From Hoeflea ulvae (lineage in GTDB: Bacteria; Pseudomonadota; Alphaproteobacteria; Rhizobiales; Rhizobiaceae): a DNA stretch of 64,000 bases. The stretch is from the NCBI RefSeq assembly GCF_026619435.1, contig NZ_JAOVZQ010000001.1, positions 4,161,501 to 4,225,500 on the forward strand, written 5' to 3'. Positions 34,460 to 37,566 of the stretch are shown here, one piece after another. The notes under the pieces were generated by a model. The model worked only from the letters and a program-made list of their open reading frames with translations, did no database searches and was not told where the DNA came from. Within the stretch, counting starts at the first letter, position 1; each line of letters opens with the position of its first letter. The position numbers and the translations under genes were made by a program.

Positions 34460-35711
34460 ATGTCCGCACCCGCAGCCAATCTTCGCATCAACGCCGACAG
34501 GCTCTGGGATCTCGCTCATGGACATGGCCAGGATCGGGCCCGGCATTGCCGGCGGCAACAACCGCCAGACCCTGACCGATGAAGACGGCGAAGGCCGCAA
34601 GCTGTTCCAGCGCTGGTGCGAGGACGCCGGCATGACCATGGGCGTCGACACCATGGGCAACATGTTCATGACCCGGCCCGGCACCGATCCCGATGCCCTG
34701 CCGGTCTATGTCGGCTCCCATCTCGACACCCAGCCCACCGGTGGCAAATATGACGGTGTTCTCGGCGTGCTGGCAGGCCTCGAACTGGTCCGCACGCTCA
34801 ATGATCTCGACATCAAGACCAAACACCCGATCGTGGTGGTCAACTGGACCAACGAGGAAGGCACCCGCTTTGCCCCTGCCATGCTCGCCTCCGGCGTCTT
34901 TGCCGGTGTGCATGAGCAGGACTGGGCCTATGACCGGGAAGACGCCAAGGGCAAGCGTTTTGGCGACGAGCTGGTCCGCATCGGCTGGAAGGGCGACGAG
35001 GAAGTAGGTAGCCGCAAGATGCATGCGCTGTTCGAGCTGCATATCGAGCAGGGCCCGATCCTCGAGGCGCAAGGCAAGGACATCGGCGTTGTCACCCACG
35101 GCCAGGGCCTGCGCTGGATCCAGTGCACCGTCACCGGCAAGGAAAGCCACACCGGCTCGACCCCGATGCCGATGCGCAAGAATGCCGGCCGCGGCCTTGC
35201 CCAGATCACCGAACTGGTGCACCAGATCGCCATGGACAACGCCCCCAAAGCGGTGGGCGCCATCGGCCACATCGACATCTATCCCAATTCGCGCAACATC
35301 ATCCCCGGCAAGGCGGTCTTCACCATCGACTTCCGCAGCCATGAAATCGATACATTGAACGGCATGGTCGACCGGCTGATGGCGGAAGCGCCGAAACTCT
35401 GCGACGCACTCGGCGTCGGCTTCGAGGCAGAGATCGTCGGCCAGTTCGATCCTCCGGAATTCGACAAGACGTGCGTCAAGGCCGTCCGTGACGCCGCCGA
35501 ACGGCTCGGCTATTCGCATATGGACATCATCTCCGGCGCCGGTCACGATGCCTGCTGGATCAACCGCGTGGCGCCGACCGCCATGGTCATGTGCCCCTGT
35601 GTTGACGGGCTCTCCCACAACGAGGCCGAGGACATTACGAAGGAATGGGCTGGTGCCGGCTGCGATGTGCTCATGCATGCAGTGGTGGAAACCGCCGGGG
35701 TGGTGAAATGA
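34460..35711 (+). pseudogene. Beta-ureidopropionase / N-carbamoyl amino acid amidohydrolase, one-base frameshift near the start
   Basis: ATG 34460 has AAGGAG upstream and begins SAPAANLRINADRLWD, the normal N-terminus, but this frame soon stops. The rest, from SLMDMARIGPGIAGGNNRQT to the stop at 35709-35711, is in the next frame. Dropping one base at 34511-34512 joins them as RLWD-SLMDMARIG and gives about 416 residues of M20-type Zn amidohydrolase: YVGSHLDTQPTGGKYDG, WTNEEGTRFAPAM, FELHIEQGPILEAQ, SGAGHDACW. It would hydrolyse N-carbamoyl-beta-alanine to beta-alanine, CO2 and ammonia, the third step of the pathway. If the frameshift is real, translation could start only at an internal ATG such as 34518. 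Confidence 0.8.
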
Positions 35712-36148
35712 TGGTGCCAGACGCGCCGAGCAGTCCTCCCTCCCCCTGGAGGGGAGGGATCGAGGGTGGGGGGCCAATTGTGTCACCAAGCTTGAATTCA
35801 CCCGGAGCTCTGGCACGGGCGCGAAAGCTTCGCCACAGCATGACTGATGGTGAAAAACGTCTCTGGCGCGATCTCAGAGAATTCAAAAAACTCTACGGAA
35901 TTCACGTTCGCCGGCAGACACCGGTAGGCCCTTATGTAGCGGATTTCGCCATCCACTCCGCCAGGCTGATCATCGAGGTTGATGGAGAGCATCACTTCAC
36001 TGGGCCGGGAATCGCGCGAGACAGAAAACGTGATGCGTGGCTGGCTGAAGCCGGTTATCGCGTCGTCCGCTTCAACACCGGGGAACTTGCAGAGTCCTTT
36101 GACGCCTGCATTGAGAAAATTCTGCATGAATTGGGGCTGATGATATGA
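35708..36148 (+). CDS. DUF559-family nuclease-like protein
   Basis: About 146 residues from ATG 35708, which overlaps the amidohydrolase stop. The first 30 residues are only the translation of a palindromic repeat; a more natural domain start is near ARARKLRHSMTDGEKRLWRD. The DUF559 fold, related to Vsr/restriction endonucleases, shows VGPYVADFAIHSARLIIEVD, GEHHF and KRDAWLAEAGYRVVRFNTGE, with the D, E and K of a PD-(D/E)XK-like site recognisable. The gene is bracketed by inverted copies of one repeat (35735-35773 and 36155-36195), as if it were a mobile unit placed within the pyrimidine operon. Confidence 0.75.
   Translation: MMVPDAPSSPPSPWRGGIEGGGPIVSPSLNSPGALARARKLRHSMTDGEKRLWRDLREFKKLYGIHVRRQTPVGPYVADFAIHSARLIIEVDGEHHFTGPGIARDRKRDAWLAEAGYRVVRFNTGELAESFDACIEKILHELGLMI
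35735..35773 (+). repeat. GC-rich palindromic repeat, family A, copy 1
   Basis: CCCTCCCC (35738-35745) pairs with GGGGAGGG (35751-35758), followed by AGGGTGGGGGGC. It is the inverted counterpart of the copy at 36155-36195; by eye more than four fifths of positions agree over about 40 bases. It lies within the first codons of the DUF559 frame. Confidence 0.8.
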
Positions 36149-36154
36149 TTGTCG

Positions 36155-36195
36155 CGCCCCCCACCCCTAACCCCTCCCCTCCAGGGGGAGGGGGA
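36155..36195 (-). repeat. GC-rich palindromic repeat, family A, copy 2 (inverted)
   Basis: Reverse complement of the copy at 35735-35773: GCCCCCCACCCCT, then CCCCTCCCC (36171-36179) pairing with GGGGAGGGG (36185-36193). It begins seven bases after the stop of the first DUF559 gene and completes an inverted-repeat bracket around it. Confidence 0.8.
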
Positions 36196-36223
36196 CAGTC
36201 CAACGGCAGACCGAGGTAACAAC

Positions 36224-36985
36224 ATGACCACATCAGCCAAAGTCCTGCCACTTGAGAGCAGTGACGATAGCCAACTTCGCATAGATCTTGCAGCAGCTCT
36301 CAGACTGGCGGCCTATTACGACTGGCATGAGGGTGTCGCCAACCATTTCTCCGCCGCCGTCTCACCCGACGGCAGGAAATTTCTCGTCAATCCGCGCTGG
36401 AAACATTTCTCTCGCGCCAAGGCCAGCGAATTGCTGCTGGTCGACGCCGATGACCCCGACACCATGAAGCGCCCGGATGCGCCCGACCCGTCAGCCTGGT
36501 CGATCCATTCCGCCATTCACCGCCGCGTGCCGCATGCCCGTGTGGCGCTGCATCTGCACCCTCCCTACGCCACCACCCTTGCCGGCCTGAAGGATCCCTC
36601 GATCAAGCCGATCGACCAGGTCACGGCACGGTTCTTCAACCGGCTGGCGATGGACATGAGTTTCGGCGGCATCGCCTCGGAAGAAGCCGAGGGCGAGCGC
36701 ATCGCCGCCACCATCGGCAATCATTCGAGCGTCATGATGGCCAATCACGGCGTCACCACCGTGGCCCCGACCGTCGCCGAAGCCTTTGACGCCATGTACC
36801 ATCTCGAGCGCGCGGCGCGGACCATGGTGCTGGCCTATTCGACCGGCCAGCCGCTCAACGTCATGAATGACGAACTGGCCGAATCCGTTGCCCAGGAATG
36901 GGATGTCTACAAGGACGCCGAGTTCTCGCATTTCGAGGAAATGAAACAGGTGCTTGACCGGGAAAACCCGGGTTATGCGGAGTGA
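36224..36985 (+). CDS. Class II aldolase/adducin-family protein
   Basis: 253 residues from ATG 36224. The fold of FucA/AraD-type aldolases: YYDWHEGVANHFSAAVSPDG (phosphate-loop region), WSIHSAIHRRVPHARVALHL with the metal-binding HLHPPYATTLAG, and VMMANHGVTTVAPTVAEAFD with the third histidine. Many members are not aldolases but decarboxylases or epimerases. It recurs in the pyrimidine operon between amidohydrolase and dihydropyrimidinase, yet no step in the textbook pathway needs it, so its role is open. Confidence 0.8.
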   Translation: MTTSAKVLPLESSDDSQLRIDLAAALRLAAYYDWHEGVANHFSAAVSPDGRKFLVNPRWKHFSRAKASELLLVDADDPDTMKRPDAPDPSAWSIHSAIHRRVPHARVALHLHPPYATTLAGLKDPSIKPIDQVTARFFNRLAMDMSFGGIASEEAEGERIAATIGNHSSVMMANHGVTTVAPTVAEAFDAMYHLERAARTMVLAYSTGQPLNVMNDELAESVAQEWDVYKDAEFSHFEEMKQVLDRENPGYAE

Positions 36986-37033
36986 AAACGAAACCGAAAC
37001 ATGATTGAGAGAACGCACAGGGCTGGCCACCAG

Positions 37034-37092
37034 GTTCCTCTCCCCCCGGGGAGAGGTCGGGCGCCGCCTTGCGGCGACCGGGTGAGGGGGTC
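37034..37092 (+). repeat. GC-rich palindromic repeat, family B, copy 1
   Basis: CCTCTCCCC (37037-37045) pairs with GGGGAGAGG (37048-37056); a second small hairpin CGCCGC/GCGGCG (37062-37076) follows, then GGGTGAGGGGG. Inverted counterpart of the copy at 37450-37529. It overlaps the first codons of the second DUF559 gene. Confidence 0.8.
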
Positions 37093-37542
37093 TTCGCCAC
37101 AAAACCTGAACCCGCGACCAGAGCACTGGCGCGCCAGATGCGCAAACAGCCGACCGACGCCGAGCATCTGCTCTGGTTCGAACTTCGCAATCGTCAACTC
37201 AACGGGTTTCGCTTCAATCGTCAGGTGCGGATTGGTCCCTATATCTGCGATTTCTGCTGCCGCAACAGCAAGCTGATCATCGAACTCGATGACAGCCAAC
37301 ACGCACTTGAGGAAGCCAAGGACGCGCGGCGCACAGCGTGGCTCACACAAAATGGCTACAGCGTCTTGCGGTTCTGGAATGATGAGGTTGCGTTTGAGCG
37401 GGCTGCCGTTCTGGAAACCATACTTGCCGCACTTGAAGGGCGCTTGAAGCCCCCTCACCCAACTCAGGCATCTGCTCAGCTCCGCTTCGCAGTGCCTTCC
37501 TATCCCTCTCCCCGGCGGGGAGAGGAAACAGAACACCCCTAG
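37069..37542 (+). CDS. DUF559-family nuclease-like protein
   Basis: Up to 157 residues. The start is unclear: TTG 37069 lies inside a palindromic repeat, and ATG 37138 (MRKQPTDAEHLLWFELRNRQ) would give 134 residues. The DUF559 core is RFNRQVRIGPYICDFCCRNS, KLIIELDDSQHALEEAKDAR and WLTQNGYSVLRFWNDEV. The C-terminus (PHPTQASAQLRFAVPSYPSP) is translated repeat, and the stop lies in the next repeat copy. It shares fold and setting, though not close sequence, with the DUF559 gene at 35.7 kb. The function of this family is not established; a nuclease-like role is inferred from the fold. Confidence 0.72.
   Translation: MRRPGEGVFATKPEPATRALARQMRKQPTDAEHLLWFELRNRQLNGFRFNRQVRIGPYICDFCCRNSKLIIELDDSQHALEEAKDARRTAWLTQNGYSVLRFWNDEVAFERAAVLETILAALEGRLKPPHPTQASAQLRFAVPSYPSPRRGEETEHP
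37450..37529 (-). repeat. GC-rich palindromic repeat, family B, copy 2 (inverted)
   Basis: Reverse orientation of the copy at 37034-37092: CCCCCTCACCCAA at the left, then a 45-base middle that differs from copy 1, then CCTCTCCCC (37505-37513) pairing with GGGGAGAGG (37517-37525). It covers the 3' end of the second DUF559 gene. Confidence 0.75.
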
Positions 37543-37566
37543 CCCCTCCCCTCAAGGGGGAGGGGA
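37533..37566 (-). repeat. GC-rich palindromic repeat, family A, copy 3
   Basis: CACCCCTAGCCCCTCCCC, then AAGGGGGAGGGG, nearly the same as the copy at 36155-36195 and in the same orientation. It contains the stop of the second DUF559 gene and ends 37 bases before the dihydropyrimidinase start. Confidence 0.75.

Follow-up and report, generated by a model that had tools for sequence, protein, structure and literature searches.

The closest described counterpart of the elements examined here is the system formed by REP-associated tyrosine transposases (RAYTs, TnpA_REP) and REPINs, paired repetitive extragenic palindromic (REP) sequences. There, imperfect palindromes are dispersed as inverted pairs, the gene of the partner nuclease is flanked by cognate REPs, and enzyme and repeat coevolve (PMC8266576, PMC3733652). 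According to a 2013 survey, GTAG REPs have an associated enzyme, the RAYT, and the abundant palindromes of alpha-proteobacteria have none, the CGTC REPs of this class being apparently without a dedicated transposase (PMC3733652). We analysed a stretch of 64,000 nucleotides from Hoeflea ulvae (contig NZ_JAOVZQ010000001.1, positions 4,161,501 to 4,225,500; "the window" below means this whole stretch), which carries two genes of the domain-of-unknown-function family DUF559 (PF04480), each lying between inverted palindromic repeats. We regard these loci as probable "REP + DUF559" units of a widespread REP system, in which each nuclease has its cognate REP family and which is analogous to the RAYT-REPIN system without being part of it. 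The features concerned are the following (window positions; the clade names are our own labels).

35738..35774, REP family A, left copy: core hairpin CCCTCCCCCTGGAGGGGAGGG, then tail ATCGAGGGTGGGGGG facing gene 1
35780..36148, + strand, DUF559 gene 1, domain about 35813-36133, clade IV
36156..36192, REP family A, right copy, inverted: tail CCCCCCACCCCTAA facing gene 1, then core
37035..37091, REP family B, left copy: core CCTCTCCCCCCGGGGAGAGG, second hairpin GCGCCGCCTTGCGGCG, tail GGGTGAGGGGG facing gene 2
37069..37542, + strand, DUF559 gene 2, domain about 37120-37437, clade III
37450..37527, REP family B, right copy, inverted: tail CCCCCTCACCC facing gene 2, second hairpin, core CCTCTCCCCGGCGGGGAGAGG
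37534..37565, solo REP A beside gene 2

The units fall outside the RAYT system on two counts: in place of the HUH Y1 transposase stands a partner with the Vsr/EDxHD fold, and the repeats, which lack the GTAG tag and any GTAG enrichment, have a CTCCC...GGGAG core and a GAGGGG tail. Like the CGTC REPs of alpha-proteobacteria, they are abundant REPs of this class whose partner is not a RAYT. Those REPs, however, have a CGTC, TGTC or CCTC tag, stems of 8-9 bp and CCA-like tails (PMC3733652), in contrast to the CTCCC cores and GAGGGG tails seen here; one or other of the CCTC-tagged families may overlap with them. In the open-access literature of PubMed Central we found no published link between DUF559 and REPs.

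As the initial annotation had claimed, both window genes lie between inverted copies of a palindrome, the repeats being located where it had placed them, and both encode PF04480 proteins (99.7 bits, E 1.1e-28 for gene 1; 138.8 bits, E 7.8e-41 for gene 2; curated cut-off 20.6). The A copies flanking gene 1 are 37 nt long, mutually inverted and 89% complementary, and the B core palindromes (37038-37055 and 37506-37524) are inverted around gene 2. The frame of gene 1 is open from 35645, upstream of the left A repeat; judging from the sequence, the likely start is GTG 35780, 6 nt past the GAGGGTGGGGGG tail of that repeat. For gene 2 the sole ATG, GTG or TTG start 5' of the domain is TTG 37069, within the left B repeat, and the frame crosses the right B repeat before ending at 37542. 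The strict A and B patterns were absent from 100 dinucleotide shuffles of the window, and a reversed control pattern had no match in the whole H. ulvae genome. At both loci the tails (GAGGGG or CCCCTC ends) face the gene, which is the opposite of a dispersed REPIN, so the repeats are not simple terminal inverted repeats; a simple insertion sequence (IS) with outward ends was set aside as a reading on the orientation of the tails.

Across the 5.1-Mb genome, the strict A palindrome has 12 copies, 10 of which form five inverted pairs spaced 109-175 bp start to start. Four pairs lie elsewhere and one lies upstream of a third DUF559 gene; the remaining two copies are the right-hand one flanking gene 1 and the solo REP next to gene 2. 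The strict B palindrome has 2 copies, both at gene 2. A fourth DUF559 gene (L002:900-2200 = C1:3132976-3134276) sits among several copies of a large composite palindromic repeat of the CTTAGCGTGAGCTAAG / GGTGAGGGGG type, a third repeat family. Thus, all four DUF559 genes found in this genome adjoin palindromic repeats, be they of family A, of family B or of the third.

The same holds far beyond this genome. A search with the PF04480 profile found the domain in 74 of 121 genomes from the family of H. ulvae (Rhizobiaceae), with at most 6 matches per genome and 173 matches by summing the table. REPs within 400 bp of the gene were counted with a strict core (CTCCC-N2-10-GGGAG) and with a looser form, which was drafted after the flanks in the family and the class had been seen; the phylum and named-organism sets were counted before inspection. 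The family set consisted of the four H. ulvae genes, the 29 best-per-genome loci and 80 further loci among the matches listed, with some near contig ends skipped; its counts cover 114 unique genes of the 173 matches, mainly the higher-scoring ones. Of these 114 genes, 101 have a REP by the strict pattern and 110 by the loose one. Strict CTCCCC cores cluster near the gene: within 200 bp of it their density is 3.4/kb on one side and 2.6/kb on the other, falling to 0-0.31/kb farther away. In other families of the class, 25 of 29 loci match strictly and 28 loosely; for further loci of the phylum the figures are 20 and 22 of 24 (9 of 11 from outside the class), and for loci named by organism 51 and 54 of 57. 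Among the named matching loci are metagenome-assembled genomes labelled Chloroflexota and Planctomycetota, labels that are possibly misassigned.

One could suppose that this is coincidence, GC-rich palindromes (terminators, ordinary REPs) being met in the intergenic DNA beside any short accessory gene. REPs do occur elsewhere too, and in windows displaced by 1 kb the strict core was found in 12 and the loose core in 16 of 113. GIY-YIG (PF01541) genes of the same genomes, a control picked in advance (L251, L253 and L260 dropped at contig ends), nevertheless have a REP in only 1 of 27 cases by the strict and 2 of 27 by the loose pattern, and upstream control windows of the named loci in 3 of 53. 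Together with the clade matching and the copy-number dependence described below, this makes coincidence very improbable. Terminators or chance palindromes had also been considered as candidates and were ruled out by the shuffle, GIY-YIG and named-locus controls. The RAYT-REP-like association between gene and repeat that had been proposed for the window is supported by these counts (110/114 versus 2/27).

The repeats share a common build, with a hairpin of the CTCCC...GGGAG type as core, often another hairpin that varies, and GAGGGG (CCCCTC) at the end. Outside the core, GAGGGG was found in 156 of 272 REP windows of the family compared to 33 with the flanks shuffled; GTAG is rare (27 versus 74) and CGTC hardly enriched (126 versus 109). 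Dispersed copies are short GC-rich imperfect palindromes in inverted pairs with the ends outermost, as in REPINs. Beside the genes the orientation is mostly reversed: in 169 DUF559 loci, a set that includes the two window genes twice, the end of the nearest REP points inward in 83 cases and outward in 24 upstream (binomial p 9e-9), and in 77 and 23 downstream (binomial p 6e-8). In 22 of the 169 loci the gene merely adjoins a REPIN (read as LR-gene). Compared with an IS or a miniature inverted-repeat transposable element (MITE), the mostly inward tails at the gene are unlike IS ends, and the dispersed REPIN in a cobN-like gene has inverted ends, with no target-site duplication seen by eye at this one site. 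An in-frame start codon follows 3-13 nt past the tail in 51 of 134 tail-bearing genes, versus 9 and 24 in the other frames, so the REP tail may double as the ribosome-binding region of the gene.

The number of REPs in a genome depends on the presence of the gene. For the general REP pattern, the median number of sites per genome is 25.5 where DUF559 is present (74 genomes) and 0 where it is absent (47 genomes; p=7e-12). In total, 3304 sites were found in the former, compared to 111 for the reversed control pattern, and 268 compared to 14 in the latter. The whole-genome counts of the A and B patterns do not bear out the possibility that the repeats occur everywhere irrespective of DUF559, which the initial annotation had named as grounds for giving up its proposal.

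The type of repeat, in turn, follows the protein. For 108 genes from 63 genomes (proteins with stops, shorter than 95 aa or without a loose core were dropped), repeat similarity increases with protein identity between genomes (Spearman 0.47; Mantel test, 0/999 permutations). In 66 of 74 comparisons, the repeats at a gene resembled those at the gene for the most similar protein of a different genome more than those at a divergent paralogue of the same genome (Wilcoxon p=1.7e-12), bearing out the expectation that repeat family tracks protein clade. The dispersed REPINs of G107, a genome with a single DUF559 match, have two arm types, and all 8-mers of one of these recur in the repeats at the gene.

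DUF559 is a nuclease of the Vsr/EDxHD fold under purifying selection. Its nearest solved structures are the endonuclease-like 3hrl, the homing endonuclease I-Bth0305I and Vsr, in agreement with the Vsr/restriction-like fold initially proposed; it has the Vsr fold and is homologous to the catalytic domain of EDxHD homing endonucleases. The positions D58 and H62 (A1 numbering) are invariant. The dN/dS (nonsynonymous to synonymous substitution) ratios are 0.09-0.12 for gene 1 (versus 3 congeners) and 0.09-0.16 for gene 2 (versus 4 congeners), values that are rough, with dS near or above 1. Of the four H. ulvae proteins, only that of L002 was matched by the curated vsr family TIGR00632, with 21 bits against a cut-off of 97.85; no match was listed for the window genes or for L003. 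The anti-phage models of PADLOC yielded no convincing match, only weak DpdF hits in three of the four proteins, covering 48-61 residues and scoring no more than 20.5 bits. Matches to toxin B chains (E 0.25 and above) were taken as chance.

The Vsr fold is what would be expected of a house-keeping repair nuclease, acting in very short patch (VSP) repair or in the resolution of hairpins or cruciforms, around which REPs accumulate by tolerance or as regulators. The functional link between the Caulobacter DUF559 protein VsrA and the methyltransferase ScmA, as given in PMC12907096, points the same way, as does the placement of the REP tail as a possible ribosome-binding region. On the other hand, the distribution is patchy (the 74 of 121 family genomes above, with up to 6 matches each), the gene is present or absent at one and the same site among congeners, and the repeats are clade-specific. 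We therefore hold this explanation to be improbable, more so than the homing alternative taken up below. In comparison with Vsr and VsrA, the probable partner of the proteins studied here is a REP family.

The two window sites are polymorphic within the genus. Site 2, between aldolase and dihydropyrimidinase, was scored by the aldolase anchor in 18 genomes including that of H. ulvae: 10 have an empty spacer of 77-81 bp, 5 (H. ulvae among them) a B + clade III unit, 2 an A + clade IV unit and 1 (L179) a decayed A unit. The two A units bear a B relic on their left (69 bp at 91% between H. ulvae and L166). The right end of the H. ulvae site, with its solo A, resembles that of the A + clade IV unit (L166, 62 bp, 90%; L173, 70 bp, 80%). 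As far as these alignments go, the solo A at 37534-37565 would be either a relic of such a unit or the product of recombination between alleles. Site 1, between amidohydrolase and aldolase, was scored in the same genomes except L179. Four genomes have an A + clade IV unit, three a 7-bp gap and one (L169) a clade III gene accompanied by a different type of REPIN; nine further genomes have differing spacers of 78 bp to 1.2 kb, including L174 with a relic A repeat. The empty alleles that were looked for in relatives thus exist at both sites. Between the same two genes, a short similar open reading frame (MSPxTENLxLEHLRAIR-like, by eye) was noticed in L166, L170, L174, L176 and L181, which lack an A unit there. 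L179 was also considered as a possible case of a unit turning into a REPIN. However, the REPs of L179 stand in the tail-facing (R..L) order and its spacer retains an 81-bp match (81%) to the end of the L166 unit, about 25 bp of which falls inside the DUF559 domain, so it is a decayed unit and not a REPIN.

Different units also occupy one site in different genomes: L164 differs from L166 and L173, L169 stands apart, and L003 of H. ulvae differs from L021 of a congener. At the intergenic site between a cysS-like and a glyoxalase-like gene (named by eye), H. ulvae has clade IV with A and the congener G046 has clade I with REP-I. Such differences suggest exchange of whole units, which homologous replacement could bring about as well. 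They are also what a selfish homing-type gene would leave by allele replacement. An EDxHD-like enzyme of this kind would cut REP-less or REP-bearing alleles and be copied with its flanks by repair; the REPs would be just recognition sites, and dispersed REPINs would have spread otherwise. The nearest functional relative in sequence and fold is indeed the homing endonuclease I-Bth0305I (3r3p), from which the present proteins differ in consisting of the catalytic domain alone, encoded beside REPs. Neither introns nor inteins were seen at the loci inspected, where the flanks are REPs and ordinary genes, though no formal search was made. The dependence of REP copy number on DUF559 and the agreement of repeat type with protein clade, genome by genome, would be surprising if the dispersed REPs had another driver, and we consider such a selfish homing gene unlikely.

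Direct evidence that these REPINs move comes from the cobN-like gene (named by eye), where one dispersed A-REPIN forms a clean in-frame insertion of 165 bp (G000:C1:3784688-3784852, L277:10789-10953), adding 55 codons read as QNPSPTPPHKGEGLG...SSPSPLWGGVGEGPL. Of twelve congeners, five are exactly uninterrupted at this site, five have a REPIN and two have other sequence. Here the polarity of insertion is clear, because the gene reads through without the REPIN. The arrangement is reminiscent of the Rickettsia palindromic elements found within genes. The further proposal that gene and repeats move together as one cassette can be held only as a possibility: the tails face the gene, 22 of the 169 genes merely adjoin a REPIN, the demonstrated insertion is a REPIN without a gene, and the differences at the window sites may reflect either gain or loss.

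Returning to the reading of the loci as REP + DUF559 units, we infer from the matching, the dependence and the polymorphism that the nuclease binds and cuts its REP and so causes the dispersal or maintenance of the repeats. It would recognise its cognate REP when folded into a hairpin or cruciform and then nick or cut near it, whereupon host repair or replication would re-copy the element elsewhere or re-fill cut empty alleles. In this way the nuclease might maintain and slowly disperse its REPs, as the RAYT does with GTAG-REPINs, without a covalent transposase step.

Several observations weigh against this reading, in addition to the limits given above with the family sample, the orientation set and the dN/dS ratios. 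A PD-(D/E)XK-like nuclease is not known to perform strand transfer unaided, so the dispersal step needs host repair. Six of the 47 genomes without DUF559 (G011, G037, G040, G047, G106 and G113) hold at least 10 sites (19-72), and a relaxed DUF559 search of these six and two other genomes gave four weak partial matches (E 0.08-1.7), none above the cut-off; gene loss with survival of the repeats, or another driver, would explain them. Conversely, among the 74 genomes with DUF559, 4 lack such sites altogether and 14 carry fewer than 5, for some of which a poor fit of the pattern to clade II repeats may account. Dispersed copies of the strict B repeat are absent from the H. ulvae genome. Type I dispersed REPs in G049, G060 and G086 have no cognate among the DUF559 genes examined in those genomes. 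Of 13 dispersed REP strings from five genomes, 12 were comparable, the thirteenth (G098) having no gene of its own genome in the compared set, and for several of the 12 the similarity to the genes of their own genome did not exceed chance. REPs without a gene, and dispersed types without a cognate, mean that REPs persist, or may be driven, without DUF559. The strict core misses 13 of 114 genes in the family, 4 of 29 in the class and 4 of 24 in the phylum. The loose pattern misses L031, L091, L097 and L118 in the family, where REPs are seen by eye, L198 in the class, L223 and L241 in the phylum, and L322, L332 and L336 among the named loci; L336 is truncated by a contig end and the other five outside the family show related repeats. 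REP orientation was ambiguous in 24 (upstream) and 22 (downstream) of the 169 loci, 38 and 47 had no REP on that side, and the count of 24 starts past the tail in the +2 frame is not small. At the cobN-like site, L372 and L373 are neither empty nor in possession of that REPIN. Finally, a DUF559 protein has been interpreted as a repair enzyme in PMC12907096.

The association may reach as far as Escherichia coli, in which YcjD is a DUF559 protein.

L383:5205-5435, E. coli K-12, between ycjD and fabI: CTCCC-type repeats at or beside the 3' end of ycjD

The stop codon of ycjD falls within a degenerate CACCCTCTCCC...GAGGGGG repeat; 163 bp 3' of the gene there is a complete CTCGCCCC...GGGGAGAGGGTTAGGGTGAGGGG repeat. 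This ycjD-side repeat is probably box C, a name also connected with fabI/envM. A 40-bp query of this repeat was found at 1-34 places per genome (median 19) in 5377 of 5426 E. coli genomes. For BoxC, a length of 56 and 32 copies are given in PMC2267715. Tentatively, DUF559 nucleases could be the dedicated mobilisers of a further, CTCCC-type REP superfamily across Pseudomonadota and beyond, including the ycjD-side repeat; REP dispersal would then have evolved twice, once with an HUH transposase and once with a Vsr/homing-type nuclease that uses host repair.

A specific nuclease family tied clade by clade to a different REP superfamily offers a candidate function for a widespread DUF of Pseudomonadota and gives scattered repeats without a known driver a testable candidate partner. 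The link can be tested even in E. coli K-12, where ycjD is a DUF559 gene and such repeats are dispersed. If the nuclease does disperse REPs without transposase chemistry, mobile DNA would have a novel mode of spread.

Among the family genomes, a DUF559 clade with an LKAKKLGGYKF-like motif was seen to adjoin CCTCGCCCC..GGGGGAGAGG repeats (L101, L105, L113, L115, L116 and L123). In L101, L105, L113 and L116 the gene comes after a gene ending in ..PFPDIPRF-like residues (by eye), a position that is possibly a favoured site.

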